Shown: in pieces, positions 158 to 20,519 of the stretch
Position numbering within the stretch: position 1 is the stretch's first letter
How the letters are laid out: every line of letters begins with the position of its first letter
DNA from: an uncultured Mordavella sp.
GTDB taxonomy: Bacteria; Bacillota; Clostridia; Lachnospirales; Lachnospiraceae
Length of the DNA stretch: 22,680 bases
Direction: 5' to 3'
Assembly (NCBI GenBank): GCA_902406105.1
Contig: CABPCP010000050.1
Location: forward strand, 1-22,680
Program-made: the position numbers and the translations under genes
Notes under the pieces: model-generated
Database searches by the model: none
Told to the model about the DNA's origin: nothing
Seen by the model: the letters and a program-made list of their open reading frames with translations, nothing else

Positions 158-1912
158 CTAAATCTGTCCTTCCACGAATTCACGCATCCCCTGGAAGATC
201 AGCCATACCGACGTGGCTCCCGCATCCTGGTAGCCGATGGCCCGCTCCATCAGGGATTTGGCGCGGCCAAACTTGGCCTGATAATTCTTCGTGTTCTCCA
301 CTCCCTGTCTGGCCGCCGCCTCTGCCGCTTTCAGCATTTCCAAAAGGCTCTTGTCCTGATTGGCCTCCAGCGCCTCCACCGCCGGTGAGAGCGCATCGAC
401 CATGGTCTTGTCTCCAACTTCCGCCTTCCCTCTCTCCTGGATCGCTTCCAGACTCTTTCGCTCCATCTTCGCCAGATCCGATCCAGTCAGAGACGCTTTT
501 GCGTCCATCCCTTTGGCTCCTGCCAGATACAGGCTTCCGAAGATCACGCCCGAGGCTCCGCCCATGCTCAGGAGCATGGCCCTTCCTGCCGCCTCGAACA
601 GGGCATAGACATTCTCTTCTCCTTCCATCTGGCAGAGTTTCCTGCGGACTTTCTGCATCCCCCCTGCCATTCCAATTCCGTGGTCCCCGTCTCCGATGGC
701 GCTGTCCACCTCGGTCAGATAGGGTTTGCTGGCGATGATCTTGTTGGCGATGTAGAGCAGCATATTCCGCGCGTCTTCCCCATTCAGTTCACCAAGCTCG
801 CCTTCCTTGCTGCAGACGACTTCTACGTCTTCCACGTCGCTCTCATCAAACTCCGGTTCCTCTTCCTCCGCCAGAGCAGCACTCTCTTCTTCCGCTTCGA
901 TCCCGGCTCCTGTCAGCTCTCCCTTTGCATAAAACGGGCAATAACAGGGCATATCATAATAGGTCTTCAATTCCTCATCCAGCTTAAACAGGGTAATGGA
1001 GAACCCTCCCATCTCCTGGCTGGTGCAGTAGCTGTTCAGATCTGTGTCGTGAACCTTGATCCCGTCCTGATCCAGCAGCTCTTTCACCTTTCGGTACACG
1101 ATGGCCAGCTCCGCGATGGACGTAGACCCAAGGCCGTTCACCAGCACGCATACTTCATCCCCTGCTTTCAGATCCGCATCCTCCATGATCTGGCCGTACA
1201 TCTTCTCCGCCAGCACGTCCGCATCCTGCCAGTCGGTCCGCAGGACGCCCCTCTCTCCATGAAGGCCCATGCCATATTCGATCTTTCCTTCCGGCAGTTC
1301 AAAGATGGGATGATCCACTCCCGGAAGCTGGGCCGGCGCAGTAGCCACTCCCACGCTCCTGGTGTTGTCCCTTGCCTTCTCGGTGATCCGGGTCACTTCC
1401 TCAAGGCAGAGCCCTGCATCACAGGCTCCTCCCGCGATCTTCACCACGAACACGTCTCCTGCGATGCCCCGGCGGTCGCTGATCCTCTCCTTTGGAGCGC
1501 TGGCAACATCATCCCATACCCTTACATGGGCGGTCGGGATGCCGTCGTCATTGAGGAATTCCTCTCCCATGTCGAAGTTTAAGTTGTCGCCGGCGTAACA
1601 TCCATAGACAAAGAGTACGCCCTTCCCCTGCTCCACAGCCTTCCCGGTCTCGTAGACCGTATTGGGATCCGGGGAAGCGAAGAAATTCCCGCAGGCCGCG
1701 GCGTCTGCCAGACCCTTTCCCACGAATCCGGAGAACATGGGCTCATGGCCGCTGCCGCCTCCGATGACCAGCGCCACCTTATCCTTCCTTCTCTGTTTCA
1801 GGAGGACGCCGTTCACTCTGGGGTGCTTCGCGAAATATCTCCCATAGGCGGCGATATAGCCTTCCATCATTTCCTGCACAACGCGATCCGGGTGATTGAT
1901 TATTTTTCTCAT
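158..1912 (-). CDS. Dihydroxyacetone-type kinase, DhaK-DhaL fusion (ATP-dependent)
   Basis: Cytosolic kinase of the dihydroxyacetone kinase family, which phosphorylates short ketoses (dihydroxyacetone, and in some members erythrulose) with ATP. The DhaK domain spans about residues 1-330. It has GGGSGHEP at 51-58 (His56), Asp109 in CYAGDN, and His218 in GMGLHGE, the residue that forms the hemiaminal with the substrate in this family. The DhaL domain spans about 375-584, with the metal-binding Asp cluster DSAIGDGDH (Asp403, Asp408, Asp410), GGASG at 451-455 and GDKTMVDAL near 500. One-piece DhaK-DhaL proteins are the ATP-dependent rather than the PTS-dependent form. A strongly acidic linker at about 339-363 joins the domains. 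It is the last gene of the importer operon, 22 nt after the dehydrogenase. AGGAG lies 8 nt before the ATG. The family call is firm; the exact ketose is not. Confidence 0.93.
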   Translation of the reverse strand: MRKIINHPDRVVQEMMEGYIAAYGRYFAKHPRVNGVLLKQRRKDKVALVIGGGSGHEPMFSGFVGKGLADAAACGNFFASPDPNTVYETGKAVEQGKGVLFVYGCYAGDNLNFDMGEEFLNDDGIPTAHVRVWDDVASAPKERISDRRGIAGDVFVVKIAGGACDAGLCLEEVTRITEKARDNTRSVGVATAPAQLPGVDHPIFELPEGKIEYGMGLHGERGVLRTDWQDADVLAEKMYGQIMEDADLKAGDEVCVLVNGLGSTSIAELAIVYRKVKELLDQDGIKVHDTDLNSYCTSQEMGGFSITLFKLDEELKTYYDMPCYCPFYAKGELTGAGIEAEEESAALAEEEEPEFDESDVEDVEVVCSKEGELGELNGEDARNMLLYIANKIIASKPYLTEVDSAIGDGDHGIGMAGGMQKVRRKLCQMEGEENVYALFEAAGRAMLLSMGGASGVIFGSLYLAGAKGMDAKASLTGSDLAKMERKSLEAIQERGKAEVGDKTMVDALSPAVEALEANQDKSLLEMLKAAEAAARQGVENTKNYQAKFGRAKSLMERAIGYQDAGATSVWLIFQGMREFVEGQI

Positions 1913-3098: not shown

Positions 3099-4094
3099 TT
3101 ACTCGGCATACACCGTTGTCAGAAGCTCGTCTACATTGTCTGTTGTGATCCAGGTCATCTCGATATAATCAAGCGTTTTCTCTGTCACAGTTCCCTCCAG
3201 CACATCATATGCTTTCTGGATAGCCTCCTGGCCTTCCAGCGCAGCATCCTGATATACGGTTCCCAGAAGCTGTCCTTCCTTGATCGCGGTGCAGCCATCC
3301 TTGATCGCATCCACGCCAGTCACAACAACCTGGTCTTTCACGCCAGCTGCCTCTAACGCCTGGATTGCTCCCAGGGCCATCTCATCGTTCTGAGCCACAA
3401 CTGCATCGATCTCGCCGCCAAAGGTCTCGATCCAGTTCTCAACCAGTGTAAGCGCTTCCTCACGGCTCCAGTTCGCGGTCTGCTGCGCAAGCAGCTCTAC
3501 CTTGCCTTCGTACTGCTCAAGGACATTCATATTTCCTTCCAGACGCTGGATCTGAGCAGACTGCCCGATCGGGCCTTCCAGAATTACTACATTTCCTTCT
3601 CCGCCGATCTCATCGATCGCGTACTGCATTTCCAGTTCTCCGGCCAGAACATCGTCCGGTCCTACATAATGATAGGCTTCGTCTGTATTGATCAGCATAT
3701 TAACGCCTACCAGCGGGATTCCCGCCTCTTCACACATATCAAGGGCCGGTACGATCGCGTCTGAATCCACCGCTGCCACTACGATCACGTCTACATCCTG
3801 AGCGATCAGATTCTCTACCTGTGTGATCTGATTCTGGGCGTCATTCTGCGCATCCAGCATAACCAGGTCGCATCCCAACTCCTCTGCTTTTTCTTCCATA
3901 CCTTCTACCATCAGGGTGATGAACTCTGTCATGTAGTATACGGTACATCCTATCGTATAGCTTCCATCGCCGCCTTCCGCGCTGCTCTCTTCGCCGCCTT
4001 CCGCAGATTCTTCCTCTGTTCCGGAACTGCAGCCCACCAGCATAGAAGCTATCATTGCCACTACCATCAATACTGCTAATAATCTTTTTTTCAT
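3099..4094 (-). CDS. Sugar ABC transporter substrate-binding lipoprotein (RbsB/Peripla_BP_4 type)
   Basis: Extracytoplasmic binding protein that captures the substrate and delivers it to the adjacent permease. The start chosen is the ATG at 4094 (MKKRLLAVLMVV), because AGGAGG lies 6 nt upstream; an in-frame ATG at 4112 overlaps the permease stop (TAATG) and lacks that site. The signal peptide ends in a lipobox (LVGC), so the protein is lipid-anchored, as expected in a Gram-positive. A Gly/Glu/Ser-rich acidic linker follows the cysteine. The mature part shows the RbsB fold pattern: YTIGCTVYYMTEF at the start, then DAQND, the DVDVIVVAAVDSDA strand-turn, and VVAQNDEMALGA with VTGVDAI near the end. 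The importer gene order ATPase-permease-binding protein is conserved. The sequence does not identify the ligand. Confidence 0.92.
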   Translation of the reverse strand: MKKRLLAVLMVVAMIASMLVGCSSGTEEESAEGGEESSAEGGDGSYTIGCTVYYMTEFITLMVEGMEEKAEELGCDLVMLDAQNDAQNQITQVENLIAQDVDVIVVAAVDSDAIVPALDMCEEAGIPLVGVNMLINTDEAYHYVGPDDVLAGELEMQYAIDEIGGEGNVVILEGPIGQSAQIQRLEGNMNVLEQYEGKVELLAQQTANWSREEALTLVENWIETFGGEIDAVVAQNDEMALGAIQALEAAGVKDQVVVTGVDAIKDGCTAIKEGQLLGTVYQDAALEGQEAIQKAYDVLEGTVTEKTLDYIEMTWITTDNVDELLTTVYAE

Positions 4095-4111
4095 ACTTTT
4101 CCTCCTCGTCA

Positions 4112-5056
4112 TTAATTGTTGCGTTTTGAATCGATTAATATCGCCCCGAGAATAATCAATCCCTTTACAATCTGCTGATAAAATGAAGAAACATTTAACA
4201 GATCCAATCCGTTATTTACAATTCCCAGAAGGATCGCTCCCACGATCGTTCCCCAAAGTCTTCCTCTTCCTCCTGAGAGACTGGTTCCGCCGATTACTGT
4301 TGCCGCGATCGCATCCAGCTCATAGCTTTCTCCTGCCTGCGGCAGTCCCGCGGATACCCGGGAGGTCAGAATGATCGCCGCAAGTCCGCATGCTACACCG
4401 CTGAGCACGTAGACGAACATCTTAATCTTCTTTACGTTGATGCCTGATACCATCGCCGCATTTTCGTTGCCTCCTACCGCGTACACATATCTTCCAAATT
4501 TCAGCTTCGTCAGCATAACATTGGCGATTATGAAGACAACGATCAGAATAACCGTTGGTATTGGAATTCCGATAATACTGCCTTTCCCGATAGCCAGAAA
4601 TTCTTCCGGAAGATTAGAGATCGGCCGGCCGTCGCTGTACACGTATGTCATTCCTCTTGCGATCGTCATCATAGAAAGGGTTACCACAAAGGGAGCCGCC
4701 TTCCAGTATGCCACAAAATACCCATTGTAAAGGCCAAGCAGCGCGCCCAGCGCAACTGCAATCAGTACGATCGCAATCAGGGGATAATCCTGATCTCTTA
4801 AAAGTCCGGCTGCGATAATGCCGGAGAATGCCACGATCGAACCTACAGAAAGATCGATACCCCCTGTCAGACAGACGACCGTCATACCAATGGCCAGTAT
4901 TCCATTGACCGCAATCTGTCGAAGCACGTTCATCAAGTTCGTCACCGTCAGGAAATTCGGTGATACAAATGACAGGATCAGTCCCAGACCAACAACGATA
5001 AAAATCAGCATATATGTCTGGATCCAGCCTTTTTCAAATCCCTTCACTTTCTCCAT
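4112..5056 (-). CDS. Sugar ABC transporter permease (RbsC type, BPD_transp_2)
   Basis: Integral membrane subunit of the importer, 314 residues, with many hydrophobic segments and the RbsC-like signature regions. LTVTNLMNVLRQIAVNGILAIGMTVV comes early, followed by the GGIDLSVGSIVA loop. Late in the protein come DAIAATVIGGTSLSGGRG and GTIVGAILLGIVNNGL, the stretch that includes the contact with the ATPase. Only one permease gene is present, so a homodimer is expected, as in ribose importers. The gene starts at the ATPase stop in a TAATG overlap with AGGAGG 9 nt upstream, indicating translational coupling, and it ends in the same type of junction near the binding-protein gene. Confidence 0.93.
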   Translation of the reverse strand: MEKVKGFEKGWIQTYMLIFIVVGLGLILSFVSPNFLTVTNLMNVLRQIAVNGILAIGMTVVCLTGGIDLSVGSIVAFSGIIAAGLLRDQDYPLIAIVLIAVALGALLGLYNGYFVAYWKAAPFVVTLSMMTIARGMTYVYSDGRPISNLPEEFLAIGKGSIIGIPIPTVILIVVFIIANVMLTKLKFGRYVYAVGGNENAAMVSGINVKKIKMFVYVLSGVACGLAAIILTSRVSAGLPQAGESYELDAIAATVIGGTSLSGGRGRLWGTIVGAILLGIVNNGLDLLNVSSFYQQIVKGLIILGAILIDSKRNN

Positions 5057-6561
5057 TACTCTGTTCCTCCTTCTTCCACATCTGCCGCCAGAAGCATGAT
5101 CTTTTCCTGTGTGGCTTCTTCTTTCTCCAGCTCTCCGGTTTTTCTTCCTTCATAGAAGACAATGACCCTGTCTGACAATCCCAGGATCTCCGGCATCTCT
5201 GACGAAATGACGATGATCGCCTTCCCTTCTTCTGCCAGTTTTACGATCAGCTTGTAAATCTCGGTTTTCGCGCCTACGTCGATTCCTCTCGTAGGCTCGT
5301 CAAAAATCAGGATATCCGGGTTCTGGAGCAGCCACTTGGCAAGTACGATCTTCTGCTGATTTCCTCCGCTTAGCTGCGCCACCAGCTGCTGCATGCTCGG
5401 CGTCTTGATACTGAGCTTCTCTCTGTATTCTTCCGCCGCCTTCATGGCTTTCCTTTTGTTGATCGCCCCCAGCTTGTTGGACATCTCCGTAAGGGAGGGA
5501 AGGATTGTATTATCATATACGCTCATGGTAAGGACCAGTCCGTTTCCCTTTCTGTCCTCCGTCACATATCCGACCCCTTTGGAGATGATCTTCTGCGGGG
5601 AAGGCTTTTCCACCTTCTCCCCATGGATATAGATCTCCCCGGATGTGGGCTGGGTAATGCCAAATAGAGCGTTCATCACTTCGGTCCGTCCTGATCCCAT
5701 CAGGCCCGAGAATCCCAGAATCTCGCCCTTATTCAGAACAAAGGAAATATCCTCAAAAACTCCTTTCTGGCTCAGGTTCTCTACCCTTAGGACCTCTGAT
5801 CCGATCTGGTTGTGCCTCTCTGGATAGATTTCAGCCAGTTCTCTGTCTACCATCTTTACCACAAGCTGATTCTCGTCGATTTCATCTGCATCGTAAGTCC
5901 CGATATAATTTCCATCCCGGAAGACGGTAATCTCATCCGCGATACGGAAGACCTCGTCCATCTTATGCGTAATATAGACAATACACCGCCCGTCTTCCTT
6001 TAGACTTCGAATAATATCAAACAGATTCGCGACTTCTCTCTCTGTAATCGTAGCAGAAGGCTCGTCCATAATGATGATTTCCGCGTTGTAGGACAACGCC
6101 TTCGCAATCTCTATCATCTGCATCTGCGAGACGGTAAGCTGCTTCATCAGCATGGTAGGCGGCAGGTCCACTCCCACCCGTTCCAGCAGCAGGGACGCTT
6201 CGCTGTTCATCTTTTTATAATCGACCAGCTTTCCCTTGCAGAATTCCTTTCCCAGAAACAGGTTCTCCGCAATGGTCATATCCAGGATCGGGCTCAGTTC
6301 CTGATGGATCATGGATATCCCATGGCTCAGCGCCTGTTTGGGCGTGTAAAAAGCAACCTTCTCGCCATGAAGAAAGATCTCGCCTTCGTCTGCCTGATAA
6401 ATGCCCGCGATGATCTTCATCAAAGTTGATTTCCCGGCACCGTTTTCTCCCATCAGCGCATGGACCTTCCCCTTTACCAACCTGAAATTAACGTTGGACA
6501 AGGCCCGAACCCCAGGAAACTGCTTTGTGATATGTTTCGCTTCAAGCACGACATTTTCCAT
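5056..6561 (-). CDS. Sugar ABC transporter ATP-binding protein (RbsA/MglA type, tandem NBD)
   Basis: ATPase subunit of the importer with two nucleotide-binding domains in one chain. NBD1 has Walker A GENGAGKST at 38-46, the signature-like LTVSQMQM, Walker B IIIMDEPSA and the H-loop YITHK. NBD2 has the degenerate GLMGSGRTE loop normal for this family, LSGGNQQK and ILIFDEPTRGID. The start is placed at 6561 (MENVVLEAKH), which has GGGAGGAAAAAGCT directly upstream; an in-frame ATG 16 codons earlier adds a basic, non-homologous leader. With this start the length is 501 residues, the family norm. It is the first gene of the importer operon and overlaps the permease by one nucleotide. The gene immediately upstream (6838-8289) encodes a diverged relative of this protein. 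Confidence 0.94.
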   Translation of the reverse strand: MENVVLEAKHITKQFPGVRALSNVNFRLVKGKVHALMGENGAGKSTLMKIIAGIYQADEGEIFLHGEKVAFYTPKQALSHGISMIHQELSPILDMTIAENLFLGKEFCKGKLVDYKKMNSEASLLLERVGVDLPPTMLMKQLTVSQMQMIEIAKALSYNAEIIIMDEPSATITEREVANLFDIIRSLKEDGRCIVYITHKMDEVFRIADEITVFRDGNYIGTYDADEIDENQLVVKMVDRELAEIYPERHNQIGSEVLRVENLSQKGVFEDISFVLNKGEILGFSGLMGSGRTEVMNALFGITQPTSGEIYIHGEKVEKPSPQKIISKGVGYVTEDRKGNGLVLTMSVYDNTILPSLTEMSNKLGAINKRKAMKAAEEYREKLSIKTPSMQQLVAQLSGGNQQKIVLAKWLLQNPDILIFDEPTRGIDVGAKTEIYKLIVKLAEEGKAIIVISSEMPEILGLSDRVIVFYEGRKTGELEKEEATQEKIMLLAADVEEGGTE

Positions 6562-6651
6562 AGCTTTTTCCTCCCATCCACATTTCGACTTTCCTCTTTT
6601 TCTTACCAAAAGCCTAACACATTTCTCCCCTCGCTCAAACTTACCATCTTC

Positions 6652-6657
6652 ATAATA
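6652..6657 (-). promoter_or_regulatory. Candidate -10 of the importer operon promoter
   Basis: On the minus strand TATTAT lies about 90 nt before the ATPase ATG, inside the 232-nt gap after the terminator of the preceding operon. No recognisable -35 stands 16-18 nt upstream (TAACTC at 17 nt). That would suit a promoter needing an activator such as the neighbouring AraC-type response regulator. This is a weak match on its own. Confidence 0.3.
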
Positions 6658-6690
6658 GGGGTGACAATCTTTGGGAGTTATGTAATTTGA

Positions 6691-6710
6691 ATAATATTTA
6701 CATATATTAT
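6691..6710. promoter_or_regulatory. Inverted repeat upstream of the importer operon, possible activator site
   Basis: ATAATAT and ATATTAT are perfect 7-bp arms around a 6-bp spacer (TTACAT). The repeat sits about 45-65 bp upstream of the start site implied by the candidate -10, a usual place for an activator. AT-rich arms can arise by chance, so regulatory function is inference; the response regulator at 9318-10925 is the obvious candidate partner. Confidence 0.3.
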
Positions 6711-6787
6711 GTTATTTTTTTGTCTATCTTGTTTATCCAGGAACCACTCTGCGCAGACGCGGCAGCCTCCCGTTGGGTATATTGCGC

Positions 6788-6837: not shown

Positions 6838-8289
6838 CTACCCCTCCGCGTACAGGAACCGGTAGGCTTCTTCCTTTTCTATGATCTCCCCGTGCCTGAT
6901 ATAGACTTCCCGGCCGCTGCAGTAATTCAGTTCCGCTGTATTGGATGTAATGACCAGAAGGGGGATCTTTCTCTCCCTCAGCATATACAGCATCTCTCTG
7001 GCAGTCTCTCTGGCCTGTATATCTCCTTCCGCGAATGGCTGGATACACACTAACAGTTCCGGGGAGTAGAGCAGCCATTTGCTGTAGAGCACCTTTTGTA
7101 CTTCTGACGGCGATAATTCTTTGATCTTTTTTCGATATAATCCTCTGTCAATGACCTCCTCCAGCAGGATCTTGATGCTTTTTTTATATTTAGGCACCAC
7201 CCATATCCCCGGCACTTTTCTCGAGAGCAGGATCTGAAGGTTGTCCATGACAGAAAGTTCTTCAAACAGCGTTGCCACCGCCGGATTTCCTTCCACAATA
7301 CCTATCCCGCTCTTCAGCCTGCTGCCGCCTTTCTTGATCTCGATCGACTTATCTCCATAGATAATCCTTCCAGAGCAAACCGGTATCTCTCCCCGAAATA
7401 CCCCTGTCACTTCCTCGAAGCTTTTTTCATCGATACAGAAAAGCTTTACGATCTCACCCCGCGCCACGCAGAACGTTACATCTTTTAGATATTCCGATGA
7501 AAGCCTTTGGATCTCTACCACCTTTGTTTCATCGGAAGTCCCAGGCAGGATCCTGTTTTCATCCGCTCTCTTTTTCATCTCATCGTGATAGAGAATCGTA
7601 TGCAGAAGCATATAATCGCAGTCTTCCGCTTCTTTGATTGCGTAGGTTTTCCCATGTTTGATGATGACCACAGTGTTTACATACCTAAAATCGATATCCT
7701 CCAGGGGCTCCACAATGATGCAGGAAACGCCTTTCTCCCTCATCTTCTCCAGAAGTTTCATGACCTGACGCATCTCATTGCTGCTCAGTGAATTACTGAG
7801 CGTTGTCAGGACCAGGATCTTCCGACCGGCCAGATAGGCTTTCATGATCTCAATCTGCACCTTCTCGAAATCAGAAAGTCTTTTGACCGGCCGCTCAATA
7901 TCGATGGCGATCTCAAACTCTTCGAACAGCCGGGCGGCACTCTTTCTGTATTTCCTGGTACTGACCCACTGTTCTTCTGCCTCCGGCCGCAGCAGGAATA
8001 TGTTTTCCACCATAGATACCGCATCGATCAGGATACTCTCCCGCGATATGACCGCGATCTTCTCCCGCAGAAGATCCGCCGCCTGTTTTTCCGCGATCAG
8101 CCGTTCATTATAATAGACCTTCTCGTAGTCTGCCTTTTCTTTCCCGGTCAGGATCTGGAGGAACGCATGCTTTTCCTGGATATTGTCAAAGACACAGTGG
8201 ACGATCTCCCCCTCGCAGACCTGAATCTGTATTCCTTTCAGCAGCGTTCCTTTTCGCAGACTTTCAATCCGCAATCGTTCTTTCTTCAT
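6838..8289 (-). CDS. Tandem ABC-ATPase-like protein lacking nucleotide-binding motifs (RbsA paralogue, probable regulatory pseudo-ATPase)
   Basis: The 483-residue protein follows the RbsA layout end to end, but the catalytic motifs are gone. Where NBD1 should have Walker A it reads CVFDNIQEKHAF, and in NBD2 it reads FCIDEKSFEEV. The Walker B positions read ILVLTTLSNS and LLVCIQPFAEGD, without the Asp-Glu pair, and the H-loop reads IVEPLED. Homology is still clear: LSDFEKVQIEIMKAYLAG and LSPSEVQKVLYSKWLL match the signature helices of the neighbouring active ATPase, and VYIRHGEIIEKE matches the domain end. The ORF is intact, so it is a maintained protein rather than a decayed gene. It overlaps the histidine kinase gene by 26 nt and ends at its own terminator, so it is made with the kinase, not with the importer. 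ATP hydrolysis is unlikely. A scaffold or sensor role linking importer and kinase is inference. Confidence 0.8.
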   Translation of the reverse strand: MKKERLRIESLRKGTLLKGIQIQVCEGEIVHCVFDNIQEKHAFLQILTGKEKADYEKVYYNERLIAEKQAADLLREKIAVISRESILIDAVSMVENIFLLRPEAEEQWVSTRKYRKSAARLFEEFEIAIDIERPVKRLSDFEKVQIEIMKAYLAGRKILVLTTLSNSLSSNEMRQVMKLLEKMREKGVSCIIVEPLEDIDFRYVNTVVIIKHGKTYAIKEAEDCDYMLLHTILYHDEMKKRADENRILPGTSDETKVVEIQRLSSEYLKDVTFCVARGEIVKLFCIDEKSFEEVTGVFRGEIPVCSGRIIYGDKSIEIKKGGSRLKSGIGIVEGNPAVATLFEELSVMDNLQILLSRKVPGIWVVPKYKKSIKILLEEVIDRGLYRKKIKELSPSEVQKVLYSKWLLYSPELLVCIQPFAEGDIQARETAREMLYMLRERKIPLLVITSNTAELNYCSGREVYIRHGEIIEKEEAYRFLYAEG

Positions 8290-9304
8290 AATCGCCTCTT
8301 TGGATCTTTGGCAGAGTCACTTTGATATCTGTCCCTGTTCCCTCCACGCTGTAAACATGGACCCCGTAGTTTTCTCCAAACAGCAGTTTGATCCTGCTGT
8401 TGACATTTTTCATAGCGATCCCTCCTCGCTTGTTCTTATCCTCCCCTACATAGCTGACAGCTACTTTCTCAAAATAGTCGTTGATTTTCCCCACCTGTTC
8501 TTCCGGCATCCCGATGCCGTTGTCAGAGATGGTGATCAATAGTTTATGTACCGTTGTGTCGATCTTCACTCGCACGATCCCGCCTTCCACCTTTTTCTCG
8601 ATGCCATGGTAAATCGCGTTTTCCACGAAAGGCTGGATGGTCAGTTTCGGCAGCCGCAGCCGCAGGATCTCTTCCTCCTGCGGGTAGGTGATCTCCAGTT
8701 TCAGTTTCTCTCCAAAACGGTAATGCTGGATCGTAAAATAGTTCTCTACATTGTCGATCTCCTCTTCCAGCGTCACAAGATTATCCACTCCCGTGATCGA
8801 ATACCGAAAGAAGATAGACAACGCCTCTGTCGTCTCAGCCACGCTGTTCAGCCTTGCGCAAATCGCATCTCCTCTGATGGCCTCCAGGGTATTGTACAGG
8901 AAATGAGGATTGATCTGGTTCTGCAGCGCCAGATATTCCGCCTGCTTTTTGGACATGCGGATCGCATCCTGCTTATTCAGCAGGTGACGGAATCTTCTCA
9001 TCACTTCATTCCACTGAGGCATCCATTCATAATCCATCTCAAACAATTCTTCGTAAGCCTCTCCGTCCGCAAAGCGCTGATAGACTTTCTTCATATCTTC
9101 ATAAGGACGGACCAGACAAGCCATCGTCCAGTTGATGAGGAAGGCATACAGGAGAAACTCCCCGATGATGACCCAGAATACCGGGAATACCGGTATCAGA
9201 TCCTTGGAAATGAGCACACATAAAATGATGATATTAATGATGCCAACACACACTAAAGCCCCGATATTCAAGAGCGCCCGGCTGGACAATACGTTCTTTT
9301 CCAC
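8264..9304 (-). CDS. Sensor histidine kinase, YesM/LytS-like, without an extracytoplasmic sensor domain
   Basis: Membrane histidine kinase of the His_kinase (PF06580) plus HATPase type. Two hydrophobic segments at about 9-33 and 39-64 are separated by only a few residues, so almost nothing is exposed outside. A coiled juxtamembrane stretch follows (about 65-120). The phosphoacceptor is His134 in NPHFLYN. The ATP-binding domain shows Asn229 in QPFVENA, DNGIGM at 261-266 and RGGIAMKN at 293-300. Typical YesM proteins carry a large outside sensor domain, so the signal here must enter through the membrane or from a cytoplasmic partner. The start codon is GTG, with GGAGGGAAGGAAA upstream. It lies 13 nt after the response-regulator gene and overlaps the pseudo-ATPase gene, which points to a three-component unit. 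Confidence 0.9.
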   Translation of the reverse strand: MEKNVLSSRALLNIGALVCVGIINIIILCVLISKDLIPVFPVFWVIIGEFLLYAFLINWTMACLVRPYEDMKKVYQRFADGEAYEELFEMDYEWMPQWNEVMRRFRHLLNKQDAIRMSKKQAEYLALQNQINPHFLYNTLEAIRGDAICARLNSVAETTEALSIFFRYSITGVDNLVTLEEEIDNVENYFTIQHYRFGEKLKLEITYPQEEEILRLRLPKLTIQPFVENAIYHGIEKKVEGGIVRVKIDTTVHKLLITISDNGIGMPEEQVGKINDYFEKVAVSYVGEDKNKRGGIAMKNVNSRIKLLFGENYGVHVYSVEGTGTDIKVTLPKIQRGDYEERTIAD

Positions 9305-9317
9305 TTTCCTTCCCTCC

Positions 9318-10925
9318 CTAGTTGTACAATTTCCGGAATTCTGTCGGAGTGACTCCTGTCAGTTTTTTGAACAGCCTGGAAAAATATTTGATATCTGAAT
9401 ATCCTACAGCGTAGGATATGTCCTCCACCGTCTGTTCCGTATTCAGAAGCATATTTTTCGCGTTATCGATCCGGATCTTCTTCAGATAATCGGAAAAATT
9501 CATCCCCGTCTCTTTTTTAAACATACTGGAGAAATAAGTGGCGTTAAAGCCGATCTCACCGCTGACCTTTTCCAGCGTCAGCGGCTGATCATAATGCTCT
9601 CCTATGTACCGCTTCGCAATCCTGATGGGCCTGGCTTCCACATACTTCTTTTCGTCCATCCAGTGTCTCAGCGAATTTATCATATAATCTTTCAGATATG
9701 TCATAACTTCATCGATGGTCCCACACAGTTCCAACTGCGCAAGCAGTTCCGTATACTGATCCGGGATCGTTATATTATAGCTGTGGGCTCCAAAATAAAA
9801 CAGCCGCAGGATCCCCTTATAAATCTCTGCGATCACTTTTCCGTCTTGTCTGGGGCTGTCTTTCAGCGCAGCCTCCAAATGCTCCATTTCTTTTTTGATA
9901 TTATCCAGGTCCACGATCTCGATCGCATTGAGGAAACGCTTTTTGAAGGCATTGCCGATATAGTCGTCCGCATGATCTGACTGCGGCTCCTCCCTCTTTT
10001 CCAGAAGAGATGCCTCTCCGAAATAGAATCTGTCCTGCATAGCTTCCCCTGCTTCCGAAAAGCTTTCCAGCACTTTTTGCATGTGCTCTTTTCTGCCGCC
10101 GATGGCCATATATATCTTGATCTCTCCAAACACGTCCTGGAATTTGGCAATATCCAGCCGGACCTTTTTGAGTTTCCTGTGGATTCCCTGAAATTCACTC
10201 TCCCCGCCGTTAAAAAGTCCGCAAATCTCTCCATCGATAATCTGGAATACTGCCTCACCGCTAACTGGCTCCAGAGCCTCTCTGAGAATCTCCATCCCTT
10301 TTTCCAGAAGGATTCTCCTGGTATCTGTGTCTCCCTTTCGTTTTCCCGGGAAGATCTTAACGATCAGTGCTTGAAAATATCCTTCTCTGAAGTGGTAGTG
10401 ATATTCTTCATTGATCTTTTCTCTGACAAAGAATCCTCCGAATTTCTCCGGACGTTTCAAAATGTCTCCCAGAAGGCTTCTCTTGACCTTCTTCTCATTT
10501 TCCTCCAGCTTTTTCTGGATCTCTTCCCATTTCTCCGCATCCCGGATCTCTTCTTTGTATTTGTCCAGAATCTTCTGGAGTGTGGCCATCATATCCTTCT
10601 TTCGAAGAGGTTTCAGGAGATAATCTTCCACGCCGTAGCGGATGGCGTTCTGAGCGTAATCAAACTGACTGTATCCGCTGATGATCACAATATGCAGATC
10701 AGGATAGAGGACTTTGGCTTTCTGTATCAATTCCATTCCGTCACATCCGGGCATCCGGATATCCGTGATCATGACATTGACCGGTGTTTCCTGGATAAAC
10801 TTGTACGCTGAGATCCCGTCATTTACGATCCCCACGATCTCAAAACCGAGTTTTTCCCATTCCACCAGGTTTGCGATCAGCTGGCACACCTTTTTCTCAT
10901 CATCTGCGATCAGTACTTTCAACAT
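9318..10925 (-). CDS. Response regulator, YesN-like, with AraC-type DNA-binding domain
   Basis: Cytosolic transcription regulator of 535 residues. The receiver domain (about 1-120) has the acidic pocket Asp8-Asp9, phosphoacceptor Asp55 in MITDIRMPG, and the conserved Lys in YLLKPL. A long middle region (about 125-425) begins with a predicted coiled stretch rich in Lys/Glu and is poorly conserved, as is usual for YesN proteins. The C-terminal ~105 residues form two AraC-type helix-turn-helix units, with LTLEKVSGEIGFNATYFSSMFKKETG and the ending DISYAVGYSDIKYFSRLFKKLTGVTPTEFRK. It is the first gene of the signalling operon; AGGAG is 9 nt before the ATG. The adjacent importer operon is the likely target, by gene order. 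Autoregulation is possible. Confidence 0.93.
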   Translation of the reverse strand: MLKVLIADDEKKVCQLIANLVEWEKLGFEIVGIVNDGISAYKFIQETPVNVMITDIRMPGCDGMELIQKAKVLYPDLHIVIISGYSQFDYAQNAIRYGVEDYLLKPLRKKDMMATLQKILDKYKEEIRDAEKWEEIQKKLEENEKKVKRSLLGDILKRPEKFGGFFVREKINEEYHYHFREGYFQALIVKIFPGKRKGDTDTRRILLEKGMEILREALEPVSGEAVFQIIDGEICGLFNGGESEFQGIHRKLKKVRLDIAKFQDVFGEIKIYMAIGGRKEHMQKVLESFSEAGEAMQDRFYFGEASLLEKREEPQSDHADDYIGNAFKKRFLNAIEIVDLDNIKKEMEHLEAALKDSPRQDGKVIAEIYKGILRLFYFGAHSYNITIPDQYTELLAQLELCGTIDEVMTYLKDYMINSLRHWMDEKKYVEARPIRIAKRYIGEHYDQPLTLEKVSGEIGFNATYFSSMFKKETGMNFSDYLKKIRIDNAKNMLLNTEQTVEDISYAVGYSDIKYFSRLFKKLTGVTPTEFRKLYN

Positions 10926-11138: not shown

Positions 11139-12143
11139 CTACCTATAATTATATCGCCTCAAAGACTTATCCAAATGCGCCTGCATCGCCTTCCCGGCTC
11201 CGATGGAATCGTGAGCCAGGATAAAACCATAGATCCGCTGGTGTTCCTCGTAGATCTCCTTTAGCTGTTCCTCGTCCACCATCCCTGTGCCGCTGATGCG
11301 CCGGGTCAGATTGCTGATGGTCTGGATCATACTGTAGATCACCTGATTGCCGGAACATTCCGCGATGCAGATGTGGAACTCCAGATCGCCGTCCAGGAAT
11401 TCCTTATAATTCCGTTCCATATACGCCTTGTGGATCTTATAGGAACTGTCATACAGCCTTCCCAGCCTGTCATCTCTGCTGCACGCGGCCGCAAGCTGCG
11501 CCGCCTTTACCTCCAGGATATTGCGGACTGTAATGATATCCTCTGTCTGATTTCCATTCAGGAACAAGGACCAGGACAACGGGATGATAAAGAAATTGGT
11601 CTCGCTGCTGCTGATATACGTACCTTGTCCCGGATGAATATCAATCATTCCGAGTACATCAAGTACCTTCAAGGCTTCGCGGATAGCCGACCGGCCTACG
11701 TCCATCTTCTGGGCCAGTACCCGGTCGGATTCTATCTTATCACCTTTTTTCAGCTTTTTCTCCAGAAGCTGTTCTGAGAAATACATAGTCAGACGGTATA
11801 ACAGGCGGTTGATATTTCCCTTCTTCTCCGCGTTTTTGCGGATCTGGTCCGACTCCCCGTCTCCCGGCAGGATCACTTCCAGCTGTTCCGCGAATTCTTC
11901 CGGCGGCATGGAGAAAGCCATGGAATCAATCGACAGATTCTCCGCTACCGCAAGGACCACCTCGCTCAAACGGGCGCCGCCCTTGGACTCCAGATTCGAC
12001 AGCGTAGCGATGCTCATGCTTTCTTTTCCATCCTCGCTGGACAGAAATTGGCTGATAAACTCTTTCTGAGTCAATCCAAGATAACGTCTCAGCAGCCGGA
12101 TATTATCTTTCTTATATGTGGGGCTCATCTTCTCAACCGTCAT
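11139..12143 (-). CDS. Transcriptional regulator with XRE-type HTH fused to GntR/FadR (FCD) repressor
   Basis: 334-residue regulator with three apparent parts. Residues about 12-72 look like an XRE/Cro-type helix-turn-helix (IRLLRRYLGLTQKEFISQF ... IATLSNLESKG). Residues about 110-178 are a GntR winged helix (KIESDRVLAQKMDVGRSAIREALKVLDVLGMIDIHPGQGTYI). Residues about 200-330 are an FCD ligand-binding domain that keeps the metal-binding set Asp253, His257, His301 and His323. FCD proteins bind small organic acids, so a pathway acid is a reasonable effector. It is the last gene of the allantoate operon, 56 nt after allC, with GAGGT before the ATG. Plain FadR-family proteins are about 220-250 residues; the extra N-terminal HTH explains the length. 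The likely operator is at 21356-21365. It is unrelated to the IclR-type AllR of E. coli. Confidence 0.88.
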   Translation of the reverse strand: MTVEKMSPTYKKDNIRLLRRYLGLTQKEFISQFLSSEDGKESMSIATLSNLESKGGARLSEVVLAVAENLSIDSMAFSMPPEEFAEQLEVILPGDGESDQIRKNAEKKGNINRLLYRLTMYFSEQLLEKKLKKGDKIESDRVLAQKMDVGRSAIREALKVLDVLGMIDIHPGQGTYISSSETNFFIIPLSWSLFLNGNQTEDIITVRNILEVKAAQLAAACSRDDRLGRLYDSSYKIHKAYMERNYKEFLDGDLEFHICIAECSGNQVIYSMIQTISNLTRRISGTGMVDEEQLKEIYEEHQRIYGFILAHDSIGAGKAMQAHLDKSLRRYNYR

Positions 12144-12199
12144 AACAAACCTCTCTTTTGCCCTTCCATGCTTCTTTCATTTCCCGCAGGTCTTTTCTC

Positions 12200-13441
12200 C
12201 TACTCGCTTAAGAGTTTCTCCGCAAGTTCTTCCATGATCGTGGCCGCTTTCGCGAAATCACTGTACTTGGTAAATTCTACCGGGCAATGGCTTCTGCCCT
12301 CTTTGCTTGGCACAAAAAGCATAACTGTGGGAAGCACCTGTCCGATCTCCAAAGCATCGTGTCCGGCTCCGCTTGGCAGATACTTATAGCTGTATCCGTG
12401 CTCCTTGCAGCCCTCTTCCATGATCTTCAGCATATCTTGGGACAGATTGACCGGAGTGATCACCAGTTTGGTATCAATCTCATAGCTGCCGCCCATTTCT
12501 TTGACTTCCCGCTCCAGCGCCGCACGCATCCGGTTGGCGATATCATTAATGTTGTCGTTATTCTTAGAGCGGATATCCACGGTAAATTCCACCTTTTCCG
12601 CCACAATATTCATACCGCCCGGAACGGTATTGATGTAGCCTGTGGTAGCGACTGTGCCGTCGGCCTTCTCCCTCGCCCAGTCCGGAATCTTGGAAATGAC
12701 TTTTGTCGCCGCGTCTACCGCGTCCATTCGCATATCCATAGGTGTCGTTCCCGCATGGTCCGCTCTTCCGTGAACGGTCACCATATATCTCTGGATTCCC
12801 ACGATACAGTCAACCAGCCCGATCTCGATATTTTCCGCATCCAGGACCGGTCCCTGCTCGATATGGGCCTCCAGGAAATATCCGATAGATCCGTCTGGCC
12901 ATTTCGCGTCTGTTACTTTCTCCGGATCCAGACCATAGCCTTTCATAGCGTCATAGATGGAGATTCCATCCGTATCTTTGAATTTCTTACAATATTCTAC
13001 ATCTCTGTGGCCCAGCATCGCGCCAGATCCAAAGTAGCCGGTTCCAAAGCGCATACCTTCTTCATCGCAGAAACCTACCACAACAAAATCCCGCTTGGGA
13101 GCAATTCCCTTTTCTTTCAGCAGCCTGGCTGTCTCGATGGCGCAGACCACTCCCGCGATCCCATCGAAATCTCCGCCGTTTACCACAGAATCATAGTGAG
13201 ATCCCATCATCACACAGGGCTTAGAGGAGTCTTCTCCTTTCAGGACGCCGATCACATTGCCGGCCGCGTCTTCTCTCACTTCGAGTCCCGCCTCTTCCAT
13301 GATCTCTTTCAAGTAGTTGACCGCTTCTCTCGCCTCTTTGGTAAATGGAAGCCTGGTACACCCATTTCCCGGAGTCGCTGTAAAGCTCTTCAAATGCTCC
13401 AAATCTCTCGCAATTCTTCCCGTAATCTCTTCAACACCCAT
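12200..13441 (-). CDS. allC: Allantoate amidohydrolase (M20 family, AllC/N-carbamoyl-amino-acid hydrolase group)
   Basis: Metal-dependent cytosolic amidohydrolase of 413 residues that converts allantoate to ureidoglycine, NH3 and CO2. The dinuclear metal site is visible: His82 in GSHYDS, Asp93 in GGDFDG, Glu127-Glu128 in CDEEGMRF, His193 in EAHIEQGP and His385 in GRSHCPVE. The dimerisation-domain motif RADHAGTTPMD follows His193, and SGAGHDAL is near the end. By sequence alone the call could be another N-carbamoyl-amino-acid or ureido-acid hydrolase of the same family. Co-location with allE, allD, fdrA-ylbE and carbamate kinase makes allantoate the natural substrate. AAAGGAGG lies 8 nt before the ATG. 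The gene is separated by 36 nt from the small membrane-protein gene. Confidence 0.87.
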   Translation of the reverse strand: MGVEEITGRIARDLEHLKSFTATPGNGCTRLPFTKEAREAVNYLKEIMEEAGLEVREDAAGNVIGVLKGEDSSKPCVMMGSHYDSVVNGGDFDGIAGVVCAIETARLLKEKGIAPKRDFVVVGFCDEEGMRFGTGYFGSGAMLGHRDVEYCKKFKDTDGISIYDAMKGYGLDPEKVTDAKWPDGSIGYFLEAHIEQGPVLDAENIEIGLVDCIVGIQRYMVTVHGRADHAGTTPMDMRMDAVDAATKVISKIPDWAREKADGTVATTGYINTVPGGMNIVAEKVEFTVDIRSKNNDNINDIANRMRAALEREVKEMGGSYEIDTKLVITPVNLSQDMLKIMEEGCKEHGYSYKYLPSGAGHDALEIGQVLPTVMLFVPSKEGRSHCPVEFTKYSDFAKAATIMEELAEKLLSE

Positions 13442-13477
13442 TGTTTTTTCCTCCTTTGATCTTTATAGGTCTGTTGA

Positions 13478-13678
13478 TTACTTCTTTCTCCGGTCCAGGA
13501 TATAGACCTTAAATGGAGAATACAGCATTGCTGCGACAATCACTAAAAAACCGATCATACATATCACATCATTCGATGCGTTAAGCCCTGCCATAATTAT
13601 ACCAAACGCCGCCATAATTGCAAGAAACGCAATGGTCAGCCCGCCTTCTTTTGTCTTAAAAAAACTATTCTTTTCCAT
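13478..13678 (-). CDS. Small two-helix membrane protein of unknown function
   Basis: 66-residue protein not recognised as a known family. A basic N-terminus (MEKNSFFKTKEGG) leads into a hydrophobic stretch (about 14-34, LTIAFLAIMAAFGIIMAG), a short polar turn (NASND), a second hydrophobic stretch (about 40-58), and a basic tail ending in DRRKK. This predicts a two-helix hairpin with both ends in the cytoplasm. The start at 13678 is preferred because GGAGGTG lies 10 nt upstream; an ATG at 13696 would overlap that site. It sits 25 nt after the LctP permease gene and 36 nt before allC, in frame with the operon's spacing. A small accessory subunit of the permease is one possibility, based only on position. 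Confidence 0.72.
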   Translation of the reverse strand: MEKNSFFKTKEGGLTIAFLAIMAAFGIIMAGLNASNDVICMIGFLVIVAAMLYSPFKVYILDRRKK

Positions 13679-13703
13679 CTTATGCCACACCTCCATTTTC
13701 CCT

Positions 13704-15314
13704 TTATAAGCAGATCAGCAGGAAGGTAACGGCGCCGATGAGGATCGTTGCCGGAACTGTGATCGAAAGCAATTTTTTCATGACTTCTCCTTCTCTGCCC
13801 AAGATGCCTGCCGTCGTCGTCCCAAGGATGATCTTGCTGGGGCTTACCGCCGCGCCGATAGCGCCGCCAGCCGTCTGTGCTCCCAGAATCGCGGAACTGT
13901 TGACAGACAGAAGATTGGCTGTGGTCATTTGGAAGTCGCCAAAGAGAATATTGGAGCTCATATTGCTTCCTGTCATAAAGGTTCCAAGAAGTCCTACAAA
14001 TGGAGCCAGCACCACATATGCTTTTCCAAGCACACCCGCGATACCGTCTGAAAGCACCACCGTCTGTCCTGTTCCGCTCATGATCATAGACATGATGACC
14101 AGCCCGATCACCGCGATGCCGGACGGCATAGTCATAGAAACGGATTTTATGAACACACGCTTTACACCGCCTTCTTTGATCCATCCGTGACTCTTATAAT
14201 AGAGGATTCCTATGATCGCCGCAATGAAAAGGAACATGCTTGCATGGGTAAAGGGCGCAAGGGGAGAATAACTCTCCACCGCTTCGTTCACATAGCCATA
14301 TCCGGTAACCGTCTCCGGGAAGGCGAAGCCTATGGTAAACTGGCCCAAAAATGTGTTGACCGGTTTTACCAGCAATACGATCAGCGTCAGAGCGGACAAA
14401 AGGATGTAAGGAACGAACGCCTGGATCAAGGTCATATCCGCCGGCGCGTCGTCGTTTTCTCCTTCCACTGAGTCCCGCCTCATGATGCCGCTGTCCGCGA
14501 TGCTCCATTCTTCCTTATACATCTTCAGCCGCCCCAGCAGCATGATCACTACCAGGGAGATACAGGACGGAACAAAACAGGACAGGGTGGTATTCACCTG
14601 AGTCAGCGCTAACTCTCCGCCGCCCTGGATCAAGGTCAGGACGATAACCGCGGGAAGCCCCTTCTTTACCGCCTTTCCCTTTCCGTAGAACCAGCACACC
14701 GCAACTCCGGTCACCACATCCCAGAACCACAGGAACGCCGCCGCCCAGAGGGCCGTCGCCAGATACTCACCGCTTCCGGCCTGCAATCCCGCTGACATAG
14801 CAAGAGAATCCCAGCCGGCCGCCAAAGTTCCAAAGGTATTTCCCCAAGCCTGGCCCAGAAGCGGAATGATCACCGCCCACATGGGCTTTACGCCGATGCC
14901 GATCAGAAGCGGCGCTCCCACCGCCACCGGAACACCAAATCCGGTAATTCCCTGAAGAAAACTTTCAAACACCCAGCCCATAGCCAGAACCAGAAGGAGT
15001 TCATTGGGAAGCAGTTTCCTCATTCCATTTCGGATTACCAGAAATGCCTTTGCCTCATCCCCCACCTGATACATCAGAATGGCCGTCCATATGATCAACA
15101 GGATGGGAAGCGCGCTCCACACTCCCTTCGCGCTCTGAGAAGCGATCAATGCAAGATCCGCCTTGTAGAACACGATTCCTGTAAAAATCGTAATCAAAAG
15201 CCCAATGGGCGCCGCTTCTGTAGCTCCCCACTGGAATTTTATCATCAAGATCAATAGTACGATAATCGGCAGAAACGCCATTATCCACATAAACAGATTT
15301 GTTGGTATATTCAT
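13704..15314 (-). CDS. LctP-family organic-acid permease
   Basis: Integral membrane transporter of 536 residues with about a dozen hydrophobic segments, in the L-lactate permease family (PF02652). The diagnostic stretch is at about 120-135 (FLQGITGFGVPVAVGAPLL). Other family features are GQAWGNTFGTLAAGWDSLA and, near the end, GSNMSSNILFGDFQMTTA and GAQTAGGAIGAAVSPSKI. Known LctP/GlcA members move lactate or glycolate with protons. Here the gene lies inside an allantoate operon, so the cargo may be a pathway acid: allantoate uptake, or export of oxamate, which is isosteric with pyruvate and close to lactate. Neither can be read from the sequence. AGGAGACGGGAT precedes the ATG. Confidence 0.9.
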   Translation of the reverse strand: MNIPTNLFMWIMAFLPIIVLLILMIKFQWGATEAAPIGLLITIFTGIVFYKADLALIASQSAKGVWSALPILLIIWTAILMYQVGDEAKAFLVIRNGMRKLLPNELLLVLAMGWVFESFLQGITGFGVPVAVGAPLLIGIGVKPMWAVIIPLLGQAWGNTFGTLAAGWDSLAMSAGLQAGSGEYLATALWAAAFLWFWDVVTGVAVCWFYGKGKAVKKGLPAVIVLTLIQGGGELALTQVNTTLSCFVPSCISLVVIMLLGRLKMYKEEWSIADSGIMRRDSVEGENDDAPADMTLIQAFVPYILLSALTLIVLLVKPVNTFLGQFTIGFAFPETVTGYGYVNEAVESYSPLAPFTHASMFLFIAAIIGILYYKSHGWIKEGGVKRVFIKSVSMTMPSGIAVIGLVIMSMIMSGTGQTVVLSDGIAGVLGKAYVVLAPFVGLLGTFMTGSNMSSNILFGDFQMTTANLLSVNSSAILGAQTAGGAIGAAVSPSKIILGTTTAGILGREGEVMKKLLSITVPATILIGAVTFLLICL

Positions 15315-15342
15315 ATCCCGTCTCCTACTCTCTTATGACATC

Positions 15343-15384
15343 AAAGGGAGCTTCCCGGCATTCCAGCCGGGAGCTTCCCTTTTT
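15343..15384 (-). other. Strong intercistronic hairpin between carbamate kinase and permease genes
   Basis: Outer arms AAAGGGA (15343-15349) and TCCCTTT (15376-15382) enclose GCT/AGC and CCCGGC/GCCGGG pairings, with a single-base bulge on each side and a 6-nt loop. It lies in the 94-nt gap between the carbamate kinase stop and the permease start. On the minus strand it is followed only by TTTG, so full termination is doubtful. Partial termination or mRNA processing that sets permease level is plausible. The plus-strand copy has TTTTT after it. Confidence 0.6.
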
Positions 15385-15408
15385 GATCTCACTTCAACTC
15401 TTTTTATC

Positions 15409-16344
15409 TCAGGAATGGATCACCGTTCCCGTCTTTCCGGCTATGCCGTCAGCCGCCTTGTCAAGCAGGGTGATCAGCGTACGCCGCCCCTCGCCGGACT
15501 GGGCGAACCGGATAGCCGCCTCGATCTTAGGCAGCATAGATCCTTTCGCGAACTGATCCTGGGCAATGTACTCTTTGGCCTGTTCTACCGTCAGATCGGA
15601 AAGCCATTCCTGGTTTTCTTTTCCAAAATTGATGGCCACCTTCTCCACCGCGGTCAGGATCACCAGGTAATCCGCGCCAATCTGGGAAGCAAGAAGACTG
15701 CTGGCATTGTCCTTATCAATGACCGCGTTCACTCCTACCAATTTCCCTTTTTCACTGACTACCGGAATTCCGCCGCCTCCACAGGTGATCACAATATGTC
15801 CCGCGTTTACCAAGGTGCGCACCGTCTCCAGTTCCCGGATCCTTTTGGGCATAGGAGAGGCCACTACCACACGGTAGCCCCTCCCGGCATCCTCCATACA
15901 GCGAACGCCGTTAGCCTCATTTTCCTCCGCTTCCTCTTTGCTCAAGAAACGTCCAATAGGCTTAGTTGGATGCTGGAACGCCTCATCGTCCTTATCCACT
16001 TCTACCTGGGCCAGGATAGTGGATACCTTGCCGTCGATATTCCGCTCGTAAAGTTCGTATTTGATGGCGTTCTGCAGGTCGATCCCAATATATCCCTGGC
16101 TCATGGCCACACAGGTGGGCAGAGGGATCTGCTTATAGTTCTCATGCATACATACCAGATTGTCCATGGCGTCCTGGATCATCCCCACCTGGGGACCGTT
16201 TCCATGAGTCACAATGATATCCAGGCCCTGCTGGGCCAGGTCAACAATGACCTTCGCCGTCTTTGCTACCGCTTCTTTCTGCTCTTCCACATCTTTTCCA
16301 AGAGCATTTCCTCCAAGGGCAATGACAACCTTCTTTCTTTCCAT
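15409..16344 (-). CDS. Catabolic carbamate kinase
   Basis: Cytosolic kinase of 311 residues that makes ATP from carbamoyl phosphate and ADP, releasing carbamate (NH3 + CO2). Family features in order: ALGGNALG near the N-terminus, THGNGPQVG at about 45-53, ATP-binding-side CGGGGIPV, IDKDNASSLLASQIGADYLVILTAVEKV, and the C-terminal FAKGSMLPKIEAAIRFA. The length is normal for ArcC/YbcF proteins. No arginine deiminase or ornithine carbamoyltransferase is nearby. It follows the fdrA-ylbE fusion by 15 nt, so it should take the carbamoyl phosphate released from oxalurate, the role given to YbcF (AllK) in E. coli. GGGAGG precedes the ATG. Confidence 0.93.
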   Translation of the reverse strand: MERKKVVIALGGNALGKDVEEQKEAVAKTAKVIVDLAQQGLDIIVTHGNGPQVGMIQDAMDNLVCMHENYKQIPLPTCVAMSQGYIGIDLQNAIKYELYERNIDGKVSTILAQVEVDKDDEAFQHPTKPIGRFLSKEEAEENEANGVRCMEDAGRGYRVVVASPMPKRIRELETVRTLVNAGHIVITCGGGGIPVVSEKGKLVGVNAVIDKDNASSLLASQIGADYLVILTAVEKVAINFGKENQEWLSDLTVEQAKEYIAQDQFAKGSMLPKIEAAIRFAQSGEGRRTLITLLDKAADGIAGKTGTVIHS

Positions 16345-16359
16345 CAGGATCCCTCCCTT

Positions 16360-19365: not shown

Positions 19366-19384
19366 AATTTCTCCTTTCCTTTAC

Positions 19385-20437: not shown

Positions 20438-20519
20438 TTTTCTAAACCATCCTTCTTTTTTATTTGCAATCTGTTCCTTAGGATCTTTTACTCAGTGGGG
20501 ACCTTTTGCCCCTGGCATC

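Follow-up and report, generated by a model that had tools for sequence, protein, structure and literature searches.

A dead RbsA-type transport motor as the suggested sensing part of a YesM-type histidine kinase

We analysed a 22,680-nucleotide (nt) stretch of contig CABPCP010000050.1 from an uncultured Mordavella sp., hereafter the window, focusing on an RbsA-like ATP-binding cassette (ABC) protein whose gene overlaps that of a histidine kinase. The minus strand of the window carries, in order, a response regulator, a YesM-type kinase, the RbsA-like protein, an RbsA/RbsC/RbsB importer, a dehydrogenase and a dihydroxyacetone-kinase-family protein. Taken together, the observations suggest that a dead transport motor became the sensing part of a kinase. 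The regulatory cassette and the importer comprise the following features (lengths in amino acids, aa):

9318..10925, minus strand: response regulator with receiver and AraC-type DNA-binding domain (YesN-like), 535 aa, first gene of the cassette (Pfam Response_reg 5.8e-24, HTH_18 4.9e-23)
8264..9304, minus strand: YesM-type histidine kinase, 346 aa, with two membrane segments 3 residues apart (Pfam His_kinase 1.1e-23, HATPase_c 3.2e-12)
8264..8289, minus strand: overlap of the kinase and pseudo-ATPase frames, 26 nt
6838..8289, minus strand: dead RbsA-type tandem ABC protein (pseudo-ATPase), 483 aa
6790..6829, minus strand: terminator-like hairpin and T run 3' of the pseudo-ATPase, found by eye; its loop is too large for the scan, and it is not in the scan list
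6634..6740, minus strand: candidate promoter/operator, a block conserved upstream of the importer operon (alignment of six loci)
5056..6564, minus strand: RbsA-type, ATP-competent importer ATPase, motifs intact (PRK10762 RbsA, E 6e-178, 592 bits, below the equivalog cut-off of 745)
4112..5056, minus strand: RbsC-type permease (BPD_transp_2 3.8e-45)
3099..4112, minus strand: RbsB-type substrate-binding protein (SBP) (Peripla_BP_4 1.6e-66)

The coordinates and length of the pseudo-ATPase given in an earlier sequence-only reading, as well as the 26-nt overlap, are confirmed, and so is its RbsA tandem layout: the protein resembles RbsA from end to end, and both ABC folds are predicted in it. It matches NCBIfam YtfR with E 3.6e-39 and 134 bits, far under the family cut-off of 850, and the neighbouring RbsA at 23% identity over 486 columns (E 9e-25); ABC_tran is the sole Pfam domain above cut-off. 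In the first nucleotide-binding domain (NBD1), the Walker A columns read F-E-K-H, against G-G-K-S in the active neighbour, while R replaces the Q-loop Gln, T-T the Asp-Glu pair and P the His. In the second domain (NBD2), Walker A reads C-S-F-E against the active G-G-R-T, and I-Q replaces Asp-Glu. The protein is a tandem ABC fold of RbsA length, but its NBD1 nucleotide residues are gone save the Lys position. The active proteins of related loci, counted as one per locus without the window's own (n=65), retain K, S, D, E and H of NBD1 and D and E of NBD2 in 65/65. The claim that both Walker A loops, both Walker B Asp-Glu pairs and the H-loops had disappeared holds for both Walker A motifs, both Asp-Glu pairs and the NBD1 His, but K40, the lysine position of Walker A, remains. 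The missing NBD2 His has to be dropped as a mark of death: active RbsA proteins also lack it (Ser in 64/65) and carry Arg instead of Lys in the NBD2 Walker A (64/65), so neither absence distinguishes a dead protein.

The window protein belongs to a conserved family. A profile search covered 397 genomes of Lachnospiraceae, the family being inferred from the named relatives L001-L003, and the best 40 hits (E 5.6e-79 or better) were taken with flanks of up to 8 kb. L003 (Dorea sp. D27) and L038 are probably one locus, and L038 alone was counted. These best 40 loci come from 33 of the 397 sampled genomes, which is a lower bound on prevalence because 4-5 candidates were scored per genome; in all 40 the DEP[TSL] Walker B is absent from both halves, and all 40 have a YesM-type kinase directly upstream (broken in L047). 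The unit is therefore a common one. Since the score of a broader dead-family profile (A4) no longer separated dead from active proteins, later searches used a profile of the short kinases. Altogether, 79 pairs, including that of the window and found in at least 55 genomes besides the window's, consist of a dead-type ATPase preceded by a YesM-type kinase with a length of about 345 aa. The AraC-type response regulator lies directly upstream in 77/79, the exceptions being L047, whose kinase frame lies in pieces of 175 and 91 aa that were left unjoined, and L061, at a contig end. The kinase and ATPase frames overlap in 54 pairs (24 by exactly 4 nt), are at most 25 nt apart in 23 and further apart in 2; the long overlaps are overstated, since frame starts were taken as the first possible codons. 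In the window, the 26-nt overlap suggests translational coupling.

Across the 79 pairs, the dead-ATPase frames measure 430-561 aa, and 47 invariant columns are common to 38 aligned members. Family-specific positions include a Glu near the N terminus (75/79), Asn 350 after the NBD2 Q-loop (78/79) and its NBD1 equivalent (72/79). Among the matches listed, one relative is near-identical to the window protein, 43 show 41-75% identity and two 24%, followed by active proteins at about 23% or less. In a FastTree tree, 81 dead and 88 active RbsA-type proteins split cleanly with support of 1.0, and the window-type protein does not group with the active ones. The two relatives at 24% identity, P0045 (from a Sphaerochaetaceae bacterium) and P0046, also group with the dead clade; Sphaerochaetaceae are spirochaetes and hence outside the phylum searched. 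A scan of a viral collection with the dead ATPase found no relative. The label 'nucleotide-binding-dead' fits the window protein but not every member: the Walker A Lys position is retained in 36/79, the NBD1 Walker A pattern in 6/79, and Lys, Ser/Thr, Asp and Glu together in 2/79. In L077, L078, L082, L089, L110 and L114 the NBD1 Walker A pattern is kept and NBD2 is ruined; L097 keeps NBD1 Lys-Ser together with Asp-Glu, again with NBD2 ruined. Such members may represent early stages, or ATP may possibly still bind in one half.

The partner kinase is practically devoid of an outer part. As proposed from the sequence, the window kinase has only a few extracytoplasmic residues: a Kyte-Doolittle scan places hydrophobic segments at residues 16-32 and 36-52, 3 residues apart, and the Pfam scan gives no sensor domain and nothing above cut-off beyond His_kinase and HATPase_c. 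Two hydrophobic segments with a loop of 3-24 residues (median 10) were found in 73/79 kinases; this count leaves out five kinases whose frames are short or broken and one in which the scan shows a single segment. Six long control kinases, in contrast, have loops of 146-274 residues (146-157 in L092-L095 and 244-274 in two others). The kinases of L092-L095 are YesM-type proteins of 471-528 aa with an SBP gene beside or near them and outer loops of about 150 residues, and look like SBP-type three-component systems.

The association was also approached from the kinase side, starting with 24 genomes, of which 12 have dead-type hits and 12 lack any at E<=1e-60. The best matches of the window kinase in these genomes are frames shorter than 400 aa, one long frame among them; below E ~1e-44 the matches are long frames save two (317 and 342 aa). 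Short kinases among the listed matches are confined to the 12 genomes with dead-type hits. The 24 genomes yielded 16 new short kinases, of which 14 have a dead-type RbsA directly behind them. L091, a much weaker match, has none. In L081, an NBD1-only gene (9681-10436 of that locus, minus strand) stands before the regulator rather than after the kinase; it has kept the Walker B Asp-Glu and lost Walker A. Next, the short-kinase profile was applied to 392 genomes from the order and to 398 from the phylum. The score boundary between short and long kinases is narrow in the order (306 against 293 bits) and wide in the phylum (423 against 287), and the separation rests on frame length as much as on score. 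Above the boundary lay 25 new hits, 19 from the order and 6 from phylum members of other families; in 24 of them a dead-type RbsA follows directly, and in one (L111) it is fused to the kinase. The kinase-first total is therefore 38 of 41 new short kinases followed by a dead-type RbsA, with one fused, one with the NBD1-only gene upstream and one with none; the Fisher table for this test (38 vs 2) leaves the fusion out. No dead ATPase accompanies the hits below the boundary (L115, L122 and L123) or the longer kinases L092-L095; L122 and L123 are short frames, L122 lying on a 3.6-kb contig, and a third such frame (G1045) was left out. Around long YesM kinases used as controls, dead-type RbsA was found in 0/20 within about 7 kb (16 of them from dead-bearing genomes) and in 0/5 further controls. 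That every YesM kinase has such a partner is ruled out by the 0/20. The prediction that the pseudo-ATPase is conserved beside kinases without an outside domain thus passed strongly in both directions, ATPase-first and kinase-first, and the fusion adds evidence that the two form a unit.

The fusion protein of L111 (genome G196) has 616 aa: behind a short kinase, residues 400-614 align with the dead-ATPase profile over positions 2-225 (E 2.6e-28 and 85 bits, two sequences searched); NBD1 is present and NBD2 is missing. By comparison, 55 separate short-frame kinases from the first two sets gave no match to this profile. The genes for RbsA, RbsC and an SBP lie upstream of the fusion on the same strand. 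A second species (G1108) carries the fusion at 87% identity, and a third congener (G1109) has a separate kinase and a full-length dead ATPase behind an upstream gene of the kind found in G1108; 14 of the 17 sampled genomes of this genus gave no match at E<=1e-40. A protein database holds 255 relatives of the fusion at E<=1e-30, of which 120 listed have 612-617 aa and are 92-97% identical, one of them named from Oribacterium parvum. Its occurrence in two species and in 255 database relatives shows that the fusion is not a sequencing error. Because the fusion and L081 are two forms with NBD1 only, they point to NBD1 as the half that the kinase would need. The fusion is our best evidence for a putative direct contact between kinase and ATPase.

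An RbsA or RbsC gene lies near 72/79 pairs, compared with 8/20 long-kinase controls (flanks up to 7-8 kb, loci partly dependent), and RbsB-like SBP genes lie near 63/79. In conservation, the post-Q-loop segments of the dead proteins rank at the 93rd and 91st percentile and their Walker A motifs at the 49th and 25th (NBD1 and NBD2, respectively), while the corresponding values in the active proteins are 76th and 51st, and 100th and 97th. Both the enrichment of RbsA/RbsC and the conserved post-Q-loop segments agree with the earlier idea of a 'transporter-coupled three-component system', in which the pseudo-ATPase may dock on the permease or compete with the active ATPase and may alter the activity of the kinase. 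Between the two operons of the window, the pseudo-ATPase is separated by 273 bases from the likely ATG start of the importer RbsA, whose open reading frame reaches back to a TTG at 6609. In an alignment of six loci (the window, L001 and L036-L039), about 100 bases upstream of the importer operon form a conserved block, and a hairpin followed by T was seen by eye 3' of the homologous gene in L001, L037, L038 and L039 as well. A separate regulatory operon controlling the importer operon would fit the conserved block and the hairpins between both operons. A simple scan for promoters and terminators was uninformative (15 and 9 found against 10.3 and 6.4 expected).

From these data we consider it fairly probable that the dead RbsA-type ATPase is the input subunit of the sensorless YesM-type kinase, presumably reporting the state of the importer. 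In such a mechanism, an importer ATPase of RbsA type would have lost its ATP machinery and been captured as the signal-input subunit of the kinase. Its NBD1 would bind the kinase, a predicted contact that is well supported by the fusion and the pairing. The dead ATPase would probably dock on the RbsC-type permease, or likewise on the membrane part of the kinase itself; the docking is probable because the segments that grip the permease coupling helices in a working RbsA are retained. It would pass the presence, occupancy or conformational state of the importer to the kinase, which would phosphorylate the AraC-type regulator, and this in turn would most likely control the adjacent importer operon. 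The docking, the direction of the signal and the target operon we infer. A broader proposition, about which we are rather more doubtful than confident, is that these units form a signalling class: the sensory subunit of the histidine kinase would be a dead ABC ATPase that sits in, or probes, a sugar permease's ATPase dock and tells whether the importer is present, loaded or working. The conserved system would have arisen once from RbsA and spread through at least one clostridial family and further families of its phylum.

Several observations weigh against these proposals. Loci that share a genus or genome make the counts overstate the number of independent events, for which reason the Fisher values are rough. 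Long-branch attraction may help the monophyly of the dead clade. Pfam detects no ABC domain in the fusion, and a structure prediction from 21 near-identical sequences was unusable, with a mean predicted local distance difference test (pLDDT) score of 35; it says nothing on the interface, and the profile match is the only ground for the ABC identity of the fused part. On the importer side, the fetched stretch of 7/79 pairs contains no RbsA/RbsC gene; contig ends cut six of these stretches (L053, L061, L077, L099, L102 and L114), and that of L100 is uncut. The docking segments are not unique, as the signature helix of NBD1 and the Walker B strand of NBD2 are likewise well conserved in the dead proteins (94th and 88th percentile, respectively). 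In solved importers, the post-Q-loop segment is situated at the groove for the coupling helix of the permease, and in the dead proteins it is a putative docking site. Finally, in a mirror-tree comparison of 59 loci having all five proteins within length limits, the dead ATPase tracks the regulator genes more closely than the importer genes: its tree distances correlate at 0.88 with the response regulator and 0.87 with the kinase (regulator with kinase, 0.86), against 0.76 with active RbsA and 0.72 with RbsC, for which the kinase's own values are 0.64 and 0.62. The dead ATPase has thus been inherited with the signalling unit, its tie to the importer being weaker.

These distances would also suit the strongest alternative, in which the dead ATPase is a cytosolic sensor whose altered sites bind a small molecule such as a sugar phosphate or nucleotide and switch the kinase with no importer contact. 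Such a sensor would share the kinase contact, which is the best-supported step, and would agree with the 7/79 pairs without RbsA/RbsC, the Walker A Lys kept in 36/79 and the whole NBD1 Walker A pattern kept in 6/79. A soluble sensor, however, needs neither the enrichment of parent-type importers (72/79 vs 8/20) nor conserved post-Q-loop segments, and we regard it as unlikely. It is improbable that the real input is an SBP acting on the kinase from outside, as in XylFII-LytS and CuaDSR, with the dead ATPase being secondary. RbsB-like genes do lie near 63/79 pairs, the related longer kinases L092-L095 have an SBP gene adjacent or nearby, and SBP three-component systems are established in clostridia according to PMC10384115; yet an outer part of 3-24 residues in the 73 of 79 kinases measured, compared with 146-157 in L092-L095 and 244-274 in two others, leaves no domain for SBP binding. 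Slightly less probable still is a transport brake, in which the dead ATPase competes with active RbsA for RbsC and its proximity to the two-component genes only coordinates expression. Descent from the family of the importer ATPase and the conserved post-Q-loop segments would agree with a brake, but it leaves unexplained the absent sensor domain in all 73 measured kinases, the near one-to-one kinase pairing and the kinase fusion with loss of NBD2. A decaying RbsA copy hitch-hiking behind the kinase gene would account for the lost enzyme motifs, but a pseudogene decaying genome by genome is rejected by conservation (frames of 430-561 aa, the 43 listed relatives at 41-75% identity, Glu in 75/79 and Asn in 78/79), and we give it hardly any weight.

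The proposed role as kinase input subunit has to be compared with known systems. Intramembrane-sensing kinases of the BceS type have two membrane segments with an outer loop of 3-11 residues and receive their input via an ABC transporter, as described in PMC3023708 and PMC7828314. The window kinase agrees with their definition, a short linker between two membrane segments and no sensor domain, as worded in PMC3023708. It also resembles BceAB-BceRS as a short-loop kinase that would rely on an ABC transporter; in BceAB-BceRS, however, the transporter is the sensor, and its permease carries a large outer loop. The window instead has a dedicated RbsA paralogue that lacks ATP motifs and lies beside a separate, complete importer, a YesM-type kinase and an AraC-type regulator, and the neighbouring RbsC-type BPD_transp_2 permease has 314 aa, unlike the BceAB permease with its ten membrane segments and outer loop of about 200 residues. 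PhoR likewise lacks a periplasmic sensor domain and, according to PMC5775613, is proposed to read the PstSCAB importer through PhoU, which binds the importer ATPase and the kinase; the likeness lies in a sensorless kinase reading an ABC importer through an extra protein. In the window, the go-between would itself be a degenerate ABC ATPase, a type found fused to the kinase, and Pfam detects no PhoU domain in it, only ABC_tran above cut-off. PhoU is not known to be related to ABC ATPases. For a PhoU-like adaptor mechanism, the kinase side is backed by the fusion, and the importer side by neighbourhood and conservation only. The window system belongs to neither the BceS nor the PhoR systems.

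An importer operon under a two-component system with an extra input protein is also found in XylFII-LytS-YesN. The same arrangement is reported for CuaDSR in PMC10384115. In these SBP systems an outer domain of the kinase receives its input from an extracellular binding protein, whereas here the extra protein is predicted to be cytosolic and the outer domain is missing: the outer loop has 3 residues and Pfam finds no such domain. With RbsA-type importer ATPases, the dead protein shares tandem ABC layout, length and homology, and it differs by the lost nucleotide and catalytic residues and by its separate clade. A search of the open full-text literature, with subscription papers mostly outside it, found no description of a dead-ATPase/kinase unit. 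A sensorless kinase reading a transporter is a known principle; a dead ABC ATPase as go-between, in one clade with a fixed gene order and a fusion in one genus, is to our knowledge new. If correct, it would explain the entry of the signal for a whole group of sensorless YesM-type kinases and would mean that a transport motor was turned into a sensor through the loss of catalysis. As many of the units adjoin sugar importers, they could allow importer regulation in these bacteria to be predicted. For direct tests, the fusion protein offers a small construct.

Two further genes lie behind the importer, both identified by Pfam and NCBIfam and in an order that matches in L001-L003:

1935-2978, minus strand: zinc alcohol/polyol dehydrogenase
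158-1912, minus strand: dihydroxyacetone-kinase-family protein

On the other side of the cassette, positions 11139-12143 (minus strand) encode a GntR/FCD regulator with about 120 extra N-terminal residues, which by eye resemble a second DNA-binding domain of XRE type; Pfam reports GntR and FCD only. The minus strand from 11139 to 21308 carries a cluster resembling ureide (allantoin-type) breakdown, which contains an M20 amidohydrolase, a lactate-permease-family transporter, a carbamate-kinase-like protein, an Ldh_2 dehydrogenase, a cupin protein and a single chain of 1001 aa joining CoA_binding, Ligase_CoA and AllG (oxamate carbamoyltransferase subunit) domains.

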